64,000 bases of DNA from Methanothrix soehngenii GP6. GTDB taxonomy: Archaea; Halobacteriota; Methanosarcinia; Methanotrichales; Methanotrichaceae. Below, one piece after another: positions 7,560 to 16,988 of this stretch. Location: the NCBI RefSeq assembly GCF_000204415.1, contig NC_015416.1, forward strand, positions 2,356,001 to 2,420,000, read 5' to 3'. Positions within the stretch are counted from its first letter, which is position 1. The number at the start of each line of letters is the position of its first letter. A program made the position numbers and the translations under genes. The notes beneath the pieces were generated by a model that made no database searches, had not been told where the DNA came from, and was given only the letters and a program-made list of their open reading frames with translations.

Positions 7560-8740
7560 GAAAAACTAATCAATCGAAATGTTTATATACTATTAATATC
7601 ATAATATTTGATGTATGAGGACGCTCATAGATTTTGCCATGCGAGAAGAATATTCTCGGGTTAAAGCTCTCGGCGATGATCTCTCCGATATTAACTCTTT
7701 AATCAATTGGGATCGATTCAGATTTTTAGAACCATTGATCTATAAGAATAAAACTAGCCGTGGAGGTCGTCCAAACATTGATATTGTAATTATGGTGAAG
7801 GCACTTGTACTTCAGAGTTGGTTTGGTTTATCAGACCCAGAACTGGAACGCCAAGTTACGGACAGAATCTCATTTCGAATTTTTCTTGGCACCACAGAAG
7901 TGATTCCAGATTTCAGCACAGTTTGGCTATTTCGCGAGCGACTGATCGAATGTGGCAGATACGAGGATCTTTGGAAAGAGCTCCAGAATCAGCTTGATGA
8001 GAAAGGATTTGCCGTAAAGAAGGGCACAATTCAGGATGCTACTTTCATAACATCTGATCCAGGGCAAAAGAGGAATAAAAAAGATCAGAAAGACCAAGAT
8101 AAAAAGGATCCCAATTTAGAAGCCATCAAGGCGAGACCGACTCCTGATTTTGATAAAGACTTGCTCAATATTTCTAATAATATCGTTAGCAGCAATGCCA
8201 AACCAAAGAGACTCGATGATGGTCCAATAAATGAGGGGACTTGGGCAAAAAAGGGCAGCAAATCATTTTTCGGTTATAAGGGCCATATTCTAATCGATAC
8301 CGAGTACCATCTTATCCGAAAAATCGAGACAACAACAGCATCTCTTCATGATAGTCAGGTGGACCTTGGAATCAATGGATTACCACGTTACGCCGATAAA
8401 GGATATAGCGGTGCCAAGACACAAGGATACGATGCTGCGATGAAAAAAGCTGCAAGAGGTCATAAGCTGGGAATCAAAGACATTCTGAGAAATAAAAGGA
8501 TCAGTAGAAAGCGATCGCAAATCGAAAGATGTTTTGCGGTTATGAAACGAGCCCATAATGCAGGTCATGTTTCTGTAACGACTATCGCCAGAGCAGGGAT
8601 AAAATTCATGATGAATTCAATCGTTTACAACATAGAGCAGTTGAAATATTTAGGGCGTGTTCCTTCAACATAGCGGAGGCTATGAAAGTGCACGAGAGAA
8701 TAGAGAAAAAGCAAGGCAAAATGCAGAAAAAGAGGCTACA
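7560..8740 (+). mobile_element. IS5-like insertion element (boundaries approximate)
   Basis: The left limit is set by where the NapH-like reading frame is broken (about 7560). I could not find a matching right terminal inverted repeat or target duplication, and the rest of the NapH-like gene is not found to the right, so the right end is approximate and a rearrangement has probably happened. A TTTATATAC TATA-like box (about 7580-7588) precedes the transposase. A second, wrecked copy of the same family lies at 25249-26180. Confidence 0.6.
7615..8673 (+). CDS. IS5-family DDE transposase
   Basis: 352 residues, apparently intact. The N-terminal DUF772-type region is seen as GGRPNIDIVIMVKALVLQ and LTDPELERQ-like sequence, then DRISFRIFLG. 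Catalytic residues fit DDE: Asp in GTIQDATFITSDPG, Asp in RYADKGYSGAKT and Glu in RSQIERCFAVMKR. A Lys/Asp-rich insert (about residues 155-185) separates the first and second blocks. Base composition is more A+T-rich than the neighbouring core genes. Confidence 0.9.
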   Translation: MRTLIDFAMREEYSRVKALGDDLSDINSLINWDRFRFLEPLIYKNKTSRGGRPNIDIVIMVKALVLQSWFGLSDPELERQVTDRISFRIFLGTTEVIPDFSTVWLFRERLIECGRYEDLWKELQNQLDEKGFAVKKGTIQDATFITSDPGQKRNKKDQKDQDKKDPNLEAIKARPTPDFDKDLLNISNNIVSSNAKPKRLDDGPINEGTWAKKGSKSFFGYKGHILIDTEYHLIRKIETTTASLHDSQVDLGINGLPRYADKGYSGAKTQGYDAAMKKAARGHKLGIKDILRNKRISRKRSQIERCFAVMKRAHNAGHVSVTTIARAGIKFMMNSIVYNIEQLKYLGRVPST

Positions 8741-8756
8741 TAATGGATGAATTGAC

Positions 8757-9125
8757 CTAAAAACAACCATAAAGATTGAAAATATTAACGCAGGAATTTA
8801 AAGCTCTTCTAATTGGTGCTAAATCGAAACCCTCACTGGTTGGTTCAAAGTTCTTAACTGATGAATGATCCTTCATGGCAGTCTTACGGTTAGATGCAAC
8901 GCGATTGATAGCCCTGATTGCCAGATTGGCAGAAAGACCAAACTTAGCTCGAACATCTTGGTATACAATGCCCTGAATACGGACCTTATTTCTAAGCTTA
9001 GCAGGCGTATTCTGGTTTATCCAATTGCAGGCATCCGCAAAGGCTTTCAGAGTATCCTCCATCTCTTCGGCCTGGGAGTCTGTTGGACTTAACTTGCATC
9101 GGACGGTTAACACCTGCTCAGTCAT
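8757..9125 (-). pseudogene. tnpB: TnpB (IS605 OrfB) N-terminal fragment
   Basis: 122 residues that match the start of TnpB-type RNA-guided nucleases: VLTVRCKLSPTDSQAEEME, then FADACNWINQNTPA and the KFGLSANLAIRAINRVA helix. A full TnpB has about 370-420 residues with the RuvC D-E-D triad; all of that is missing and the sequence ends in unrelated residues (NIFNLYGCF). The 3' part was lost on the side facing the IS5-like element. Confidence 0.75.
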
Positions 9126-9186
9126 CAGTAGGCAGTATAGTCACTAAGTGATATATAGGTTTTGGTGGGCTACTTACGGCTTTCCT

Positions 9187-9207
9187 CCCCGCCCTGAAGA
9201 GCGGGGC
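9187..9207 (-). repeat. IS200/IS605-type end hairpin
   Basis: CCCCGC ... GCGGGGC forms a 6-7 bp stem with an 8-nt loop, the usual imperfect palindrome at IS200/IS605 ends. It lies just upstream of the tnpB fragment, so it is the left-end remnant of that element. Confidence 0.5.
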
Positions 9208-9481
9208 TTCCAGCCTGTGTTTATGTGAAAGCCTGTTGTCCATGAGAAATGAATCCGAACGGTTGCTGTTTGGCGGCCGGACATAGGCAAAGCCGTCAAT
9301 ACGGCATTTTATGATCGTTTAGATCGATTAGATCATTTTTTAAAGCATAGCTAATCCAATCAAATCGATATCTGCGCTATGAAGAGCCCCTTGCTTCTCG
9401 TCAAGTCGTCAATAATATCTGAGCTGAAAAATGGTCCATGTTATGCAATAAAAATTATATATTACAAAATCACACGCTTGA

Positions 9482-9494
9482 TTATATATAAATA
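9482..9494 (+). promoter_or_regulatory. Strong TATA box of the RiPP-like operon
   Basis: TTATATATAAATA is one of the best archaeal TATA matches in the window. It predicts a transcript start near 9510 and a leader of roughly 30 nt before the ATG at 9542. No other such box is seen before the following two genes, which fits one transcript for all three. Confidence 0.6.
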
Positions 9495-9541
9495 GCTAGA
9501 ACACTTGCGTACCCAAATTTAGATAAATACTTATACGAATA

Positions 9542-9982
9542 ATGCAAGTATTAAATATGTCAATAAGTGAAGCGTCTGGGGACATTCCCAGAAGAAAGAT
9601 TCCGAAATTCAGAGCAACAAAGGCACAGCTTAAAGATATGAAAACCGCAGCGGCTATTTTAAACATGCTCTCTGAAAAGCCGGAAGTCCTTAAGAAATTG
9701 GGTGATGAATACTTGGAAGCATCCAATGCACCGGAGGAAGAAAGGGATTTTGCAGAGTATGAGTTGAGACAAAATGTGCTTAGGACCTTGACTGAGAACA
9801 TAAAGCAAATCCCAGAAGAAGAGCTCGAAAGGAATATCGACATCGTATTAGGCCCATGGTGGCCATGGTGGCCTAGATATAGAATGCCACCAATAATCAA
9901 GGATTACGGCTATTATTGGTCTGGGGAGGGTATTGAGTTTCAGCCGCGAGGATTGGAGATGAGAAGGCAACGAAGAAGATAA
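9542..9982 (+). CDS. Candidate RiPP precursor with Trp/Pro/Tyr-rich C-terminal core
   Basis: 146 residues; a second possible start (MSIS) is at 9557. Residues about 20-100 are a charged, helical leader-like part (KAQLKDMKTAAAILNMLSEK, EEERDFAEYELRQNVLRTL). From about 104 the composition changes abruptly: VLGPWWPWWPRYRMPP, then DYGYYWSGEG, and a basic end (MRRQRRR). The WWP pair is encoded by a tandem 9-bp repeat, CCATGGTGG twice (from 9855). There are no membrane segments or signal peptide. It is followed by PqqD-like and cobalamin radical SAM genes on the same strand, so a leader plus modified core is the natural reading. No named precursor family recognised; a structural protein is the alternative. 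Confidence 0.6.
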   Translation: MQVLNMSISEASGDIPRRKIPKFRATKAQLKDMKTAAAILNMLSEKPEVLKKLGDEYLEASNAPEEERDFAEYELRQNVLRTLTENIKQIPEEELERNIDIVLGPWWPWWPRYRMPPIIKDYGYYWSGEGIEFQPRGLEMRRQRRR

Positions 9983-10036
9983 TAAGCCGACGAAGAGGAT
10001 GATCCAGATAAAAAGCTGATGAAGAGGACAGTCTAA

Positions 10037-10522
10037 ATGCCGCAAGAGATCGAGTACGATCAACCCGCAGTCGCCACTTTTTCGCCTCTGAGGTCTAAGG
10101 ATGCTGAAGATCCGTATAGAGATCTGATCAATAATATAGGTTCCATCTTAAGCGAAAGAAAGTTGATCAAAAGCGAGGTGGTATTGCCCAAAAAGGAGAA
10201 ATTGGTGGTAAATTATCCGGACTACGCATTTGCTCATCCTATTCGCTTGCATCCCTCATGTTGGGTAGATGATGGAGATCATCTTGCAGGCGTACACCCT
10301 AAATCCAGTCTTCCCTTTTTTATTAACTCTTCTGGCTCAATCATTTGTCGCCTTTGCACAGGAAAAAATAGTATTAAAGAGATACAAAAAGAGCTCAAAG
10401 AAATCTGGTTTTCAGTTGCCGATGATGTATTATTAAGGGATGGACTATCCTTCCTGATGCTGCTGGAAGAGATGAATCTAATAGAATTTGTGGGGCGGAA
10501 AATTGAAGGTACTGCTCATTAA
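10037..10522 (+). CDS. PqqD-domain (RiPP recognition element) protein
   Basis: 161 residues. The C-terminal ~75 residues match the PqqD winged-helix pattern: HPKSSLPFFINSSGSIICRL (strand pair, then ILxL-type helix), TGKNSIKEIQKELKE, and LSFLMLLEEMNLIEFVG. PqqD domains bind leader peptides and present them to radical SAM enzymes. The N-terminal ~80 residues are an unrecognised extension with HPIRLHPSCWVDDGDH. It sits 54 bp after the precursor-like gene and overlaps the radical SAM gene, so the three form one unit. Confidence 0.75.
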   Translation: MPQEIEYDQPAVATFSPLRSKDAEDPYRDLINNIGSILSERKLIKSEVVLPKKEKLVVNYPDYAFAHPIRLHPSCWVDDGDHLAGVHPKSSLPFFINSSGSIICRLCTGKNSIKEIQKELKEIWFSVADDVLLRDGLSFLMLLEEMNLIEFVGRKIEGTAH

Positions 10523-11846
10523 TCCCCCTGGTTGGGTTGGAGATAGAATCCCGTTAGGTTACGATCTAGTGCCATCGGTGCCTTTGGGTTTGGGCTACCT
10601 TGCATCAACTATGGAATCTGAAGGCATAACTGCTAAGATCGTTGACATGGATTGGGGTGGTTTTTCCAAAGAGGAATTAGTCGATATGATATCGAAATTC
10701 GATCCTGATATCATAGGAATAACATCCTTCACCTCCAATTATGCAAATGCTGTGGACATTGCCAAAGCAGCAAAATCGCACAATCCTAATATCAAAATAG
10801 TATTCGGTGGCGTACATGCTACATTCATCCATCGAGATGTGTTGCACACGATTCCTGAAGTGGACATAGTTGTTCGATATGAAGGAGAGCGAGCGATATG
10901 CGAAATCTGTGATGCTCTGGATAGGGGAAGAAAGCTAGAAAATGTCAAAGGAATCAGCTTTCGCCATGATAATCGGGTATTTTCCACACCACTTAGGCAT
11001 AGGATAGAGAATCTTGATAGCATACCATTCCCCGCTTTTCATCTATTGGAGCCCTCGATTGAGCATTACATAGGGGAGGGAAAAGAGAAGGGCTTTCCCA
11101 TAATAACTACTCGAGGATGCCCCTTCAATTGCATATTTTGTTCCACAGCAGCACTTCACGGTCGCAAATACCGTACAAGAAGCGCAAATAATGTCTTAGA
11201 TGAGATGGAATTTGTACAAGATAAATACAAAATAAATGTAATCAGCTTTGCAGATGATAATTTCACCATGAAACGAAATAGAGTTATCGAACTATGCAGA
11301 GGCATTAAAGAAAGACATCTCGATTTTGAATGGGGTTGCAGCGCCAGGGTGGACTTATTATCAAAGGATTTATTGGAGGTGATGAATTCCTCTGGCTGCA
11401 AAAATATATTTTTCGGTATAGAATCCGCATCTCAAAGGGTACTTGATACGGTTAAGAAGGGCTTTAGCATTGAGAAAGCAAAGGAGATGGTAAAGCTCAC
11501 TGAGAAAATGGGAATAAAAACACATTGTTCATTTATCCTAGGCTTGCCGAACGAGACCGTGGAATCGATAGACGAGATGATCAGATTTGTTGAAGAGACT
11601 ATGCCATCGGGAAGAGTGCTTCCTAACGTTTTGGAAATACTTCCCGGCACCGAGCTATGGGATAAAGAGAGCGAATATTTTGGAAATACGCCATCCATAC
11701 CAGCTGCAGACATAATCAGAGTTCAATTGGAGCTTTTCTACAAATTCTTTGAGATAAGTTCAAAAGGGAGGGAATTGCTTACGATTGAGCCACCAGATAT
11801 TGAGATCATTGGCGGATCGACTGCATTTGCGCAGACGCAAATGTAA
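10503..11846 (+). CDS. Cobalamin-binding radical SAM enzyme
   Basis: 447 residues from the TTG at 10503, which puts KVLLINPPG (the normal first strand of B12-binding radical SAM proteins) at the N-terminus and has GGGGCGG upstream; a TTG at 10488 adds five residues. Residues 1-140 are the Rossmann-like cobalamin domain (VPLGLGYLASTMESEG, IIGITSFTSNY, IVFGGVHATF). The radical SAM motif CPFNCIFC has Cys near 206, 210 and 213. A C-terminal ~60-residue extension follows. Such enzymes methylate unactivated carbons or phosphorus, or make rings; the PqqD partner points to a peptide substrate, probably the Trp-rich protein upstream. Codon and base composition are A+T-rich like its two partners. Confidence 0.88.
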   Translation: MKVLLINPPGWVGDRIPLGYDLVPSVPLGLGYLASTMESEGITAKIVDMDWGGFSKEELVDMISKFDPDIIGITSFTSNYANAVDIAKAAKSHNPNIKIVFGGVHATFIHRDVLHTIPEVDIVVRYEGERAICEICDALDRGRKLENVKGISFRHDNRVFSTPLRHRIENLDSIPFPAFHLLEPSIEHYIGEGKEKGFPIITTRGCPFNCIFCSTAALHGRKYRTRSANNVLDEMEFVQDKYKINVISFADDNFTMKRNRVIELCRGIKERHLDFEWGCSARVDLLSKDLLEVMNSSGCKNIFFGIESASQRVLDTVKKGFSIEKAKEMVKLTEKMGIKTHCSFILGLPNETVESIDEMIRFVEETMPSGRVLPNVLEILPGTELWDKESEYFGNTPSIPAADIIRVQLELFYKFFEISSKGRELLTIEPPDIEIIGGSTAFAQTQM

Positions 11847-11920
11847 ATGGATATAATCCAATAATAGTTCTAATAATATTTTTATATAGTTAATGTGATA
11901 ATTGCGGGCCGGCCCCGCAG

Positions 11921-12019
11921 GCTTGTTCAAGAGCAGAAGAGGCGCTGGCCATCTTCGAGCAGATCGAGAGCTCCTGCGCGGAGCGTGTGCGGAGGCAGCT
12001 GGCGGAATGGCCGGGATAA
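11921..12019 (+). pseudogene. Relic of the 3' end of an NB-ARC/TPR gene
   Basis: 33 codons read ALAIFEQIESSCAERVRRQLAEWPG before a stop; this is nearly the C-terminus of the TPR protein at 13227-15383 (ALAIYEQIKSPIAERVRLQLAEWQR). Nothing of the rest of the gene is found upstream, where the A+T-rich RiPP-like cluster ends. It marks a former second copy whose body was deleted or replaced. Confidence 0.7.
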
Positions 12020-12066
12020 GGTGGCAAGGGCATGTCCAGGGACTATCCCGCTCTATAATTATGGCC

Positions 12067-13226: not shown

Positions 13227-15383
13227 ATGCCAGATAATAAATCCCGTTTCGACCAGCGTGGCCAGAAGGTGATCGGCCAGCAGATCAATGTGGCAGGGGA
13301 CGCTACTCTCCCGCCTCCTCCTCTGGTCCTCGTCCCTCACCTGCCCGCTCCACCAAGGGACTTCACCGGCCGGGACGAGGAGCTAAAAGACCTTCTGGCA
13401 GACTTTGATCGGGGAGCCACCATCACCGGCCTGCGTGGCATGGGAGGCATCGGCAAGACGGCTCTAGCTTACGAATTAGCCGAGAAGCTTGCCAGGCGCT
13501 ATCCTGACGGCCAGATCCTGGTCGAGCTGAGGGGCACGGGCCCGGAGCCCATGACCCCAGCCGAGGCCATGGCCAAGGTTGTGAGGATCTATTATCCGGA
13601 GGCTAAGCTGCCAGGGAGCGAGGCGGAGTTGGCCAGGATCTACCACTCTCTCCTTCACGACTTGCGTGTGTTGATGCTGTTGGACAATGCCTTTAACGAC
13701 CGACAGGTGCGTCCTCTTTTGCCGCCAGCGGGCTGCGGAGTGATTGTAACCTCCCGCCGCAAGTTCACCCTCCCCGGTCTGGTGCCAATGGACCTGGATG
13801 TCCTGCCGGAGGATAAGGCGGTGGAGCTTCTGCTGAGATTATGGAATCCCGAGGCATCGCCATCCACAGAACAACTTAAAGACAAAGATCTGAGCAGAAT
13901 TGCATGCCTCTGCGGCTACCTGCCTCTAGCGCTGAGGGCAGCGGGAAGCTTGCTGGCCAACAGCCCTGACCTGAGCCCGGCTCAGCTAGCCCGAGATCTG
14001 CGGGACGAGCGCACCCGGCTGAAGCGCATCGGCAAGGAGGGCGTGGACCTGGATGTTGAATCCAGCTTCGGCCTGAGCTACAGCCGTCTGACTGAAGAGA
14101 CCGCCCGCGTTTTTCTCCTGCTCTCCGTCTTCCCTGCGGGCTTCGATGCCGCTGCAGAAGAGGTGGTCTGCCGGGACGAGGGTCACCGGCACCTGAGAGA
14201 GCTGATGCGCTGGAGCCTGGTTGAGTACCAATCACTGGGCGTAGAGTACGGGAGATATCACCTGCATGACATAGTGCGAATCTATGCCGCCTCCTGCTTG
14301 CAAGCCGGGGAGATGGGGGAGGCGGAAGAGCGCCATGCTGAACACTACTGGAGAGTACTCTCTGCTTCCAATGAGCAATACAAGCAGGGTGGGGAGAACC
14401 TCCTAGCAGGTCTGGCGCTTTTCGATCGGGAACGAGCCAACATCCTGGCAGGATGGAGCTGGGCGGAGAGGAACCTTAAGGATAGCCGTGCTGCCGACTC
14501 GCTCTGCAGCTCCTACCCAGGTGCAGGAGCATATGTGCTGAATCTGCGCCTGCATCCTCAGGAACAAATTCGTTGGCTGGAGACGGCCGCTGATGCGGCA
14601 AAACAAATGCAGGATCGAGGCGCTGAGGGCGCACACTTTGGTAACATAGGCTTGGCTTATGCCGACCGAGGCGAGACGGGAAAAGCCATCGTCTACTACC
14701 AGCAGGCCCTGACCATCACCAGGGAGATAGGGAACCGACAGGACGAAGGTGCTATACTAGGCAACCTGGGACGGGCCTACGCCAATCTAGGAGAGCCGCG
14801 TAAAGCTATCGAACATCACGATCAGGCACTGACCATATTTAAAGAGATAGGGGACCGGCGGGACGAAGGTACTACGTTGTGCAATATAGGCATTGCCTAT
14901 GCCGCCTTGGGCAAAATCCACAATGCCATAGAGTACTTCGAGCAGGCTTTCGCCATTGCTAGGGAGATTGAGGAACGAAGGAATGAAGGAATATGCCTAG
15001 GCTGCCTGGGCCAAGCCAATATCAATCTAGGCGAGATCCGAAAAGCCATCGACCACTACCAACAGGCTCTTGCCATTGCCAGGGAGATCGGAGATCGACG
15101 GAGCGAAGGAAATTCATTGGGCAGCCTGGGCACAGCTTATAAAAATTTAGGGGAACCGCACAAAGCCATCGAGCACTACGATCAGGCTCGGACCATTTTT
15201 AGAGAGATCGGGGATTGGAGGGGCGAAGGAAACTCCATCTGGAACATGAGCTTGGTCCTGAATGGCCTAGGGAATCGAGCCGAGGCCGTGAAGCTAGCAG
15301 GAGAGGCGTTGGCCATCTACGAGCAGATCAAGAGCCCGATTGCGGAGCGTGTGCGGCTGCAACTCGCGGAGTGGCAGAGGTAG
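13227..15383 (+). CDS. NB-ARC/TPR STAND NTPase
   Basis: 718 residues. Domains in order: N-terminal FDQRGQKVIGQQINVAGD motif shared with the upstream partner (residues 8-25); NB-ARC NTPase with Walker A GMGGIGKTAL (71-80), Walker B VLMLLDNAF, the sensor VIVTSRRKF and the CGYLPLALR (GLPL-like) motif; a winged-helix MHD-like region (YHLHDIVRIYA); then tetratricopeptide repeats of 40 residues from about 465 to 710, each with the AKAIEHYxQALxIxREIGDRxxEG pattern. STAND proteins oligomerise when the TPR sensor meets a trigger; many are antiphage sensors. There is no fused effector domain, so the partner protein may supply it or act as adaptor. The gene is G+C-rich. Confidence 0.88.
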   Translation: MPDNKSRFDQRGQKVIGQQINVAGDATLPPPPLVLVPHLPAPPRDFTGRDEELKDLLADFDRGATITGLRGMGGIGKTALAYELAEKLARRYPDGQILVELRGTGPEPMTPAEAMAKVVRIYYPEAKLPGSEAELARIYHSLLHDLRVLMLLDNAFNDRQVRPLLPPAGCGVIVTSRRKFTLPGLVPMDLDVLPEDKAVELLLRLWNPEASPSTEQLKDKDLSRIACLCGYLPLALRAAGSLLANSPDLSPAQLARDLRDERTRLKRIGKEGVDLDVESSFGLSYSRLTEETARVFLLLSVFPAGFDAAAEEVVCRDEGHRHLRELMRWSLVEYQSLGVEYGRYHLHDIVRIYAASCLQAGEMGEAEERHAEHYWRVLSASNEQYKQGGENLLAGLALFDRERANILAGWSWAERNLKDSRAADSLCSSYPGAGAYVLNLRLHPQEQIRWLETAADAAKQMQDRGAEGAHFGNIGLAYADRGETGKAIVYYQQALTITREIGNRQDEGAILGNLGRAYANLGEPRKAIEHHDQALTIFKEIGDRRDEGTTLCNIGIAYAALGKIHNAIEYFEQAFAIAREIEERRNEGICLGCLGQANINLGEIRKAIDHYQQALAIAREIGDRRSEGNSLGSLGTAYKNLGEPHKAIEHYDQARTIFREIGDWRGEGNSIWNMSLVLNGLGNRAEAVKLAGEALAIYEQIKSPIAERVRLQLAEWQR
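14625..15290 (+). repeat. Tandem 120-bp repeats encoding TPR units
   Basis: About five to six 120-bp units within the NB-ARC/TPR gene, each encoding one 40-residue TPR (units start near GxLGxAYxxLGE). Similarity between units is high enough for slippage or recombination to change repeat number. Confidence 0.7.
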
Positions 15384-15842: not shown

Positions 15843-16988
15843 CTACTTCCCCAGTATCTCCTTATGCGCCTCCCTGAATCCGGGGTCCCTCATCTGGCAT
15901 GAGCACTTCCCCTTGAACCAGGGGTAGCGGGTCATCTCTCTCCAGATCTCTTCCAGGCTTTTCTCTTTGATGTTTCCAAAGCCCAGAGGCATATAGGCGC
16001 AGGGCAGGGCCACTCCGTCTCCATCAACATGAATCCATCTTCTCCCGGCAAAGCAGCCGAACATCTCCGGGCTCAACAGATACGGCAGTGCGGAGACTCT
16101 GGGGCCCTCCATTCTGTTCTTCTCCTTGTGGAAGCTCTCCAGCCTGGCCACATCCCCAGATGTAAGCACCTCATCCTCATGGGTTGCCCAGCGGCCTACA
16201 GCCACAATCTCGTAGAGGGATAGCTCTTGCACCCCCAGCTCTGCAGCCAGACTGAATGCATCCTCCAGATAATCGATATTGTGGGGGGAGGTCACCATGA
16301 ACAGGTCCACCAAAAGGCCCGCTTCCAGGGCATTGCGAACCCCGGATAAGGCGTCCTGAAAAGCACCTTTGCGCCCCCGGAAGCGGTCGTGCTGCTCTTC
16401 GATGGGGCTATCTATGCTAATCCTCACCGCATACAGTCCCGCCTCTTTCAGCTGCCTGGCCAGCTCTAAAGTTAAGTGATAGCCGCTGGTGAAGCTGGTG
16501 GCCACTGCTCGCTGGTCGACAGAAGAAACCAGATCGGGCAGATCCTTACGGAGCATGGGCTCTCCACCGTCGAAGGTCACCAGATACGAGCCCATATCCA
16601 GGGCCTGGGAGATCGCCCCCTTGATCACGTCGCTTGAGAGTATCTGCCCCTGACGGGAGGGGGCGGAACAGTGCAGGCAATCGTTGGGGCAGGCCTTCAC
16701 TACCGCAATGGAGAACTGGTCGGGCACCGGCCGGCGGATCATCGCCCCCACCTGAGCATTGAGCATGCGGTCGAAGGCAACGCTTGGGGCGGGAGGAATC
16801 CAGGTGGAAAAGATGAACCTGTCCGGGCCGGAGCTGATGGATTTCTCCGTGGCAAAGACCTTATTGATCTGGTCGATTATCGGTTTCGCCAGAAGGGCAG
16901 CCGGGCCGCGGGCAGAAAGACGGATTCCTTCCCCCGTTCCATCAGCCGAGGCCTCGATCTTCAGCAGAGGCTTTTTTGCGATCTGCAT
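15843..16988 (-). CDS. Radical SAM/SPASM-like protein coupled to GGPP synthase
   Basis: 381 residues. The N-terminal ~85 residues are an unusual preamble; the radical SAM cluster motif CPNDCLHC has Cys at about 100, 104 and 107, followed by TFDGGEPMLR and ISIDSPIEEQHDRFRG. A C-terminal region with CFAGRRWIHVDGDGVALPC and CSCQMRD resembles SPASM-type auxiliary cluster ligands. The start overlaps the end of the GGPP synthase gene by 28 bp, so it is coupled to isoprenoid synthesis; an isoprenoid or membrane-lipid modification is a reasonable guess. Peptide modification is the alternative, given the SPASM-like end. Confidence 0.85.
   Translation of the reverse strand: MQIAKKPLLKIEASADGTGEGIRLSARGPAALLAKPIIDQINKVFATEKSISSGPDRFIFSTWIPPAPSVAFDRMLNAQVGAMIRRPVPDQFSIAVVKACPNDCLHCSAPSRQGQILSSDVIKGAISQALDMGSYLVTFDGGEPMLRKDLPDLVSSVDQRAVATSFTSGYHLTLELARQLKEAGLYAVRISIDSPIEEQHDRFRGRKGAFQDALSGVRNALEAGLLVDLFMVTSPHNIDYLEDAFSLAAELGVQELSLYEIVAVGRWATHEDEVLTSGDVARLESFHKEKNRMEGPRVSALPYLLSPEMFGCFAGRRWIHVDGDGVALPCAYMPLGFGNIKEKSLEEIWREMTRYPWFKGKCSCQMRDPGFREAHKEILGK

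Follow-up and report, generated by a model that had tools for sequence, protein, structure and literature searches.

A candidate three-gene RiPP locus with a PqqD-domain protein and a B12 radical SAM enzyme in a methanogenic archaeon

The window analysed here, a stretch of 64,000 bases of Methanothrix soehngenii GP6 DNA (positions 2,356,001-2,420,000), lies on the 3,008,626-base contig of a two-contig, 3,026,645-base genome and contains a trio of genes arranged head to tail on the + strand at 9542-11846, downstream of a TATA box. The trio and its left flank comprise the following features:

7615-8673, left flank: IS5 gene
8757-9125, - strand, left flank: truncated transposase gene of the IS200/605 type
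9482..9494, + strand: TATA box TTATATATAAATA, putative archaeal promoter of the trio (sole exact copy in the window)
9542..9982, + strand: candidate precursor of 146 aa (open reading frame list; coding score)
9854..9892, + strand: PWWPWWPRYRMPP, residues 105-117 of the 146-aa protein (translation; Trp clustering; putative role)
10037..10522, + strand: PqqD-domain (RiPP recognition element, RRE) protein of 161 aa (Pfam; hhalign)
10503..11846, + strand: B12-binding radical SAM enzyme (Pfam, NCBIfam, alignment, structure model)

A preliminary description of this DNA had placed a TATA box upstream of the trio and the start of the radical SAM gene inside the PqqD gene, and both statements hold. The TATA box is present exactly, matches with up to two mismatches number 4 in the window versus 0.86 expected, and a start site about 25 bases 3' of it would give a 5' leader of roughly 30-45 bases. 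From its opening TTG at 10488 the radical SAM frame runs to 11846, TTG 10503 being the likelier start, and the stop codon of the PqqD gene is at 10520-10522; counted from 10503, the two genes overlap by 20 bases. The first gene begins at ATG 9542, with an alternative ATG possible at 9557, and is separated from the PqqD gene by 54 bases.

The existence of a 146-residue protein with a Trp/Pro tail is borne out by the codon usage of its frame, which is that of its neighbours (+20.8 bits, the other five frames scoring -64 to -4), and by the clustering of four of its five Trp residues within five positions (shuffle p about 2e-4). PWWPWWPRYRMPP sits in the C-terminal third of the protein and is proposed as the centre of a core peptide; the tail, which runs up to residue 146, also includes YGYYW and RRQRRR, and the core limits of 105-117, or to 126, or to 146 are guesses. 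The protein matched no family in Pfam, NCBIfam or PADLOC and no leader family in Pfam or NCBIfam, and it lacks the NHLP (nitrile-hydratase-like) leader that both of these libraries detect in locus L183, a cluster from the same genus. No credible relative was found in 50 genomes of the order (all from one family), 393 genomes of the phylum, viral contigs or plasmids; the preliminary description had asked whether Trp-rich homologues are common apart from PqqD and radical SAM genes, and no homologues were found at all. Two matches were rejected, one in genome G313 (E=5e-4) that falls inside an IS110-like transposase frame and one in G419 that seems to be GC-rich DNA read off-frame. PWWPWWP-encoding DNA in viral contigs amounted to 73 stretches; no B12 enzyme, PqqD domain or believable relative of the precursor went with any of them, and most look repetitive or off-frame.

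The second protein carries its PqqD domain at about residues 92-154 (10310-10498). It scored 22.6 bits (E=1.4e-4) against the Pfam PqqD model in a protein scan and 24.2 bits in a genome search, the cut-off being 23.4 bits, and hhalign against an alignment of 18 independent PqqD proteins, which leaves out the one from the trio, gave 95.8% probability and E=7e-9. These scores uphold the PqqD fold assigned to it earlier. The AlphaFold model of this protein is of low confidence (pLDDT 45) and adds no structural support, and Foldseek with that model returned insignificant matches only. Matches elsewhere cover essentially the PqqD domain alone, with the 90-residue N-terminal extension matched nowhere; weak relatives in three genomes (G190, G161 and G074) were set aside, as they have no adjoining B12 radical SAM gene.

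The third protein is confirmed as a B12-binding radical SAM enzyme by Pfam (B12-binding E=2.5e-23, radical SAM E=1.3e-24), by an invariant CxxxCxxC at 11118-11141 together with retained conserved motifs, and by its fold, which was modelled well (pLDDT 88). The closest solved structures are TsrM, OxsB, MgmA, CysS, TokK and AprD4, and most of the B12 radical SAM enzymes nearest in fold are C-methyltransferases; TsrM as the top match was not taken as a sign of Trp methylation, since the other five are about equal. Pfam finds B12-binding and radical SAM domains only, without the SPASM/twitch domain of triceptide, sactipeptide and ranthipeptide enzymes. Among NCBIfam models ApyD is best at 244 bits, far below its equivalog cut-off of 750, and HpnJ and BchE follow at 221 each. 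Four control relatives without RiPP features had HpnJ or BchE first and ApyD third, and ApyD was the first model for the B12 enzymes of two loci with RiPP features, so that the ranking gives a modest signal leaning toward a peptide substrate. The best relatives reach 43% identity in the phylum sample and 41% in a scan of 84,980 species genomes, where distant members can escape the seeds and near-identical records may be absent. In almost every case a PqqD neighbour is missing, and none of the three plasmid-borne relatives inspected has an annotated PqqD-like gene beside it. In trees the enzyme forms a long branch outside a broadly distributed archaeal clade; its exact placement was set aside as unsafe, as it groups with two other long branches.

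GC3 values of 0.445, 0.404 and 0.409 for the three genes, versus 0.59-0.73 in neighbouring core genes, agree with the earlier remark that the trio is A+T-rich unlike its surroundings; a MazF-like gene (0.463) is A+T-rich too, however, and because the neighbouring insertion sequence shares this composition (0.375 for the adjoining IS5 transposase), it marks the block as foreign and not the trio as a unit. On the left, beyond the IS5 gene, lies a ferredoxin-type gene conserved in most congeners, and the alignable DNA on that side ends at about 7551 in six of them. On the right, 80 bases at 11932-12011 are 83% identical to the 3' end of a TPR gene (13227-15383), which suggests that the arrival of the block broke another gene of this type and left this scar. 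Given this foreign GC3, the IS5 and truncated transposase genes, the TPR-gene copy and the end of congener alignment, the block looks acquired. Between the insertion sequence remnant and the TPR-gene remnant (9126-11931) there are only the trio genes, and the open reading frame list holds no protease, exporter or second modifying gene at 9126-12066. At 8757-9297 the truncated transposase gene (- strand) is followed by a stretch with a hairpin, cctccccgccctgaagagcggggcttcc, that resembles the end of an IS200/605 element; an Rfam HgcC match at 9164-9297 was rejected (23 bits versus a gathering score of 50). Elsewhere in the window, at 15843-16988 (- strand), is a radical SAM/SPASM protein whose matches to heme-synthesis and PqqE-type models all fall short of the cut-offs.

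A search for co-occurring trios in other methanogens, proposed with the preliminary description, came back empty: no orthologous trio was found in the 50 order genomes or the 393 phylum genomes. The trio is a singleton, and its precursor and core are without conservation support. Among the loci examined besides the window, a B12 radical SAM gene and a PqqD domain occur together only in a Chloroflexi locus (L042) and in an NHLP-type cluster of genome G017, neither orthologous to the trio. PqqD domains over the Pfam cut-off are present in 13 of the 50 order genomes, with up to six matches per genome, and therefore peptide-modification loci are patchily common in this methanogen family, mostly without this type of B12 enzyme in the stretches examined. 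The genomes with such discrete PqqD/RRE genes include G036, G021, G009, G005, G003 and others (loci L165-L181). In one related methanogen (L099; G005, contig C9, 926-6053), a 134-aa PqqD protein is surrounded by three radical SAM genes whose features are SPASM-like, and the 646-aa radical SAM protein among them has, by eye, a C-terminal HPr-kinase-like stretch reminiscent of SynChlorMet-type cassettes.

We consider the trio to be, probably, a minimal, horizontally acquired RiPP cluster in which an RRE-bound leader directs modification of the aromatic tail by the B12 enzyme. A PqqD gene lies directly upstream of, and overlaps, a B12 radical SAM gene; a small Trp/Pro/Tyr-tailed frame lies directly upstream on the same strand; and the order precursor, PqqD, B12 radical SAM, with the last two overlapping, is the usual logic of RRE-guided maturation. 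A PqqD-fold element is present, and a leader peptidase and exporter, common but not universal in RRE-dependent systems, are absent from the block. The earlier proposal of a RiPP system with a Trp/Tyr/Pro core agrees with the domain calls and with known RiPP logic; given that the comparative trio search returned nothing, it is only partly supported, and we infer from a single genome that the 146-aa protein is the substrate of the other two. In the proposed mechanism the 146-aa protein would be the precursor, its charged, helical N-terminal part serving as a leader that the discrete PqqD-domain protein would bind and then present to the translationally coupled B12 radical SAM enzyme. SAM would be reductively cleaved at the CxxxCxxC-bound [4Fe-4S] cluster; in the PWWPWWPRYR...YGYYW tail an sp3 carbon would then lose a hydrogen to the 5'-deoxyadenosyl radical and receive a methyl group from methylcobalamin. 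By analogy with the apy and pbs systems described below, C-methylation (+14 Da) of a Trp, Tyr or Pro residue at such a carbon would be the most likely chemistry, and an aromatic crosslink (-2 Da) the next. Because the block has no peptidase or exporter, maturation would depend on host proteases encoded outside it, or the product would stay a modified protein. The stronger reading, of a new-class, two-enzyme archaeal pathway that would need no more than the B12 enzyme and a discrete PqqD protein to C-methylate or Trp-crosslink a repeated Pro-Trp-Trp core, with no relative known outside the species, is somewhat unlikely.

Several other explanations bear on the same evidence. The PqqD protein and the enzyme may be a genuine peptide-modifying pair whose substrate is encoded elsewhere, in which case the Trp-rich frame would be an orphan within the mobile block that has nothing to do with them. 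Neither a homologue nor a known leader ties this frame to RiPP precursors, and the methanogen B12 radical SAM enzymes MgmA, which is among the fold matches, and Mmp10 act on a large protein, methyl-coenzyme M reductase. The frame nevertheless adjoins the pair on the same strand at a spacing of 54 bases, with the same composition and a single promoter-like site, and PqqD domains normally serve a precursor encoded alongside them (PMC10635010); we judge this explanation unlikely. It is quite improbable that the trio is what insertion sequences left of a larger imported RiPP cluster, lacking its protease, exporter and partner enzymes and perhaps not functional: such trimming fits the IS5 gene, the truncated IS200/605-type gene and the broken TPR-gene end at its flanks, the missing maturation and export genes and the singleton distribution, whereas all three frames are intact, with overlapping starts, a clean promoter element, and the catalytic cysteines and conserved motifs kept.

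A small-molecule substrate, with another role for the PqqD-like domain, appears highly improbable. BchE, HpnJ-like and lipid enzymes do act on small molecules, the scores of the BchE and HpnJ models are not far below that of ApyD, and most relatives of the enzyme have no PqqD domain nearby; PqqD domains, however, are peptide binders in characterised systems, and ApyD ranks first for the trio enzyme but third in the control relatives.

Many RiPP clusters have been predicted in archaea, radical SAM types included, while few products are characterised, the known ones being lanthipeptides of Haloarchaea (PMC12144867). If the RiPP reading is true, this methanogen locus, with three genes that include one recognition protein and one maturase, would offer a B12 radical SAM RiPP pathway of very small size for reconstitution, and its Trp/Pro core could show which carbons are open to attack by a B12 enzyme of this kind; a product, if made, might serve in signalling or antagonism within methanogenic communities.

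The trio would belong with the known RiPP clusters that combine an RRE with a B12 radical SAM enzyme, among which its host, small size and core are unusual. In the aminopyruvatide (apy) system, the cobalamin-dependent ApyD acts on an RRE-bound peptide and places a methyl group on Tyr C-beta (PMC10635010). The two share an RRE-guided B12 radical SAM enzyme acting, in the trio putatively, on an aromatic tail, with ApyD the best NCBIfam model for the trio enzyme; however, apy is bacterial, ApyD carries its own RRE, the precursor is unrelated to the 146-aa protein, and the cluster further contains a P450, an MNIO with its partner and a methyltransferase (PMC10635010), for which the trio block has no open reading frames. 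The biphenomycin-like pbs system likewise pairs an RRE-containing protein with a B12 radical SAM enzyme, PbsB, which crosslinks two ortho-Tyr rings and whose core is aromatic, but it is bacterial, has an FHAFRF core, and needs an MNIO, an arginase, a hydroxylase and a TldD-type protease (PMC12257519).

In the Chloroflexi locus L042 (DSAR01000445.1, 761-7240), which is uncharacterised and RiPP-like, a 72-aa frame (acidic, then hydrophobic), a B12 radical SAM enzyme with ApyD as best model and a discrete PqqD protein (68 bits) lie in one run, and the PqqD proteins of this locus and the trio are 30% identical. It differs in carrying additional enzymes, another PqqD domain and an ABC transporter, and its precursor-like frame is unrelated to the 146-aa protein. 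The NHLP-type cluster (L183/L191, G017) comes from the same genus and also has a precursor-like gene adjoining B12 radical SAM genes and a PqqD domain, here in a metalloprotease-like protein; its precursor, however, is of the Os1348/Os17 NHLP family, its three enzymes are distant paralogues, and the cluster is not homologous to the trio. At about 3710-11029 on contig C180, L183 comprises the 87-aa Os1348/Os17 NHLP precursor and the three B12 radical SAM genes, together with a ParA-like ATPase and the PqqD and metalloprotease-like protein, for which the daptide protease model is a near match.
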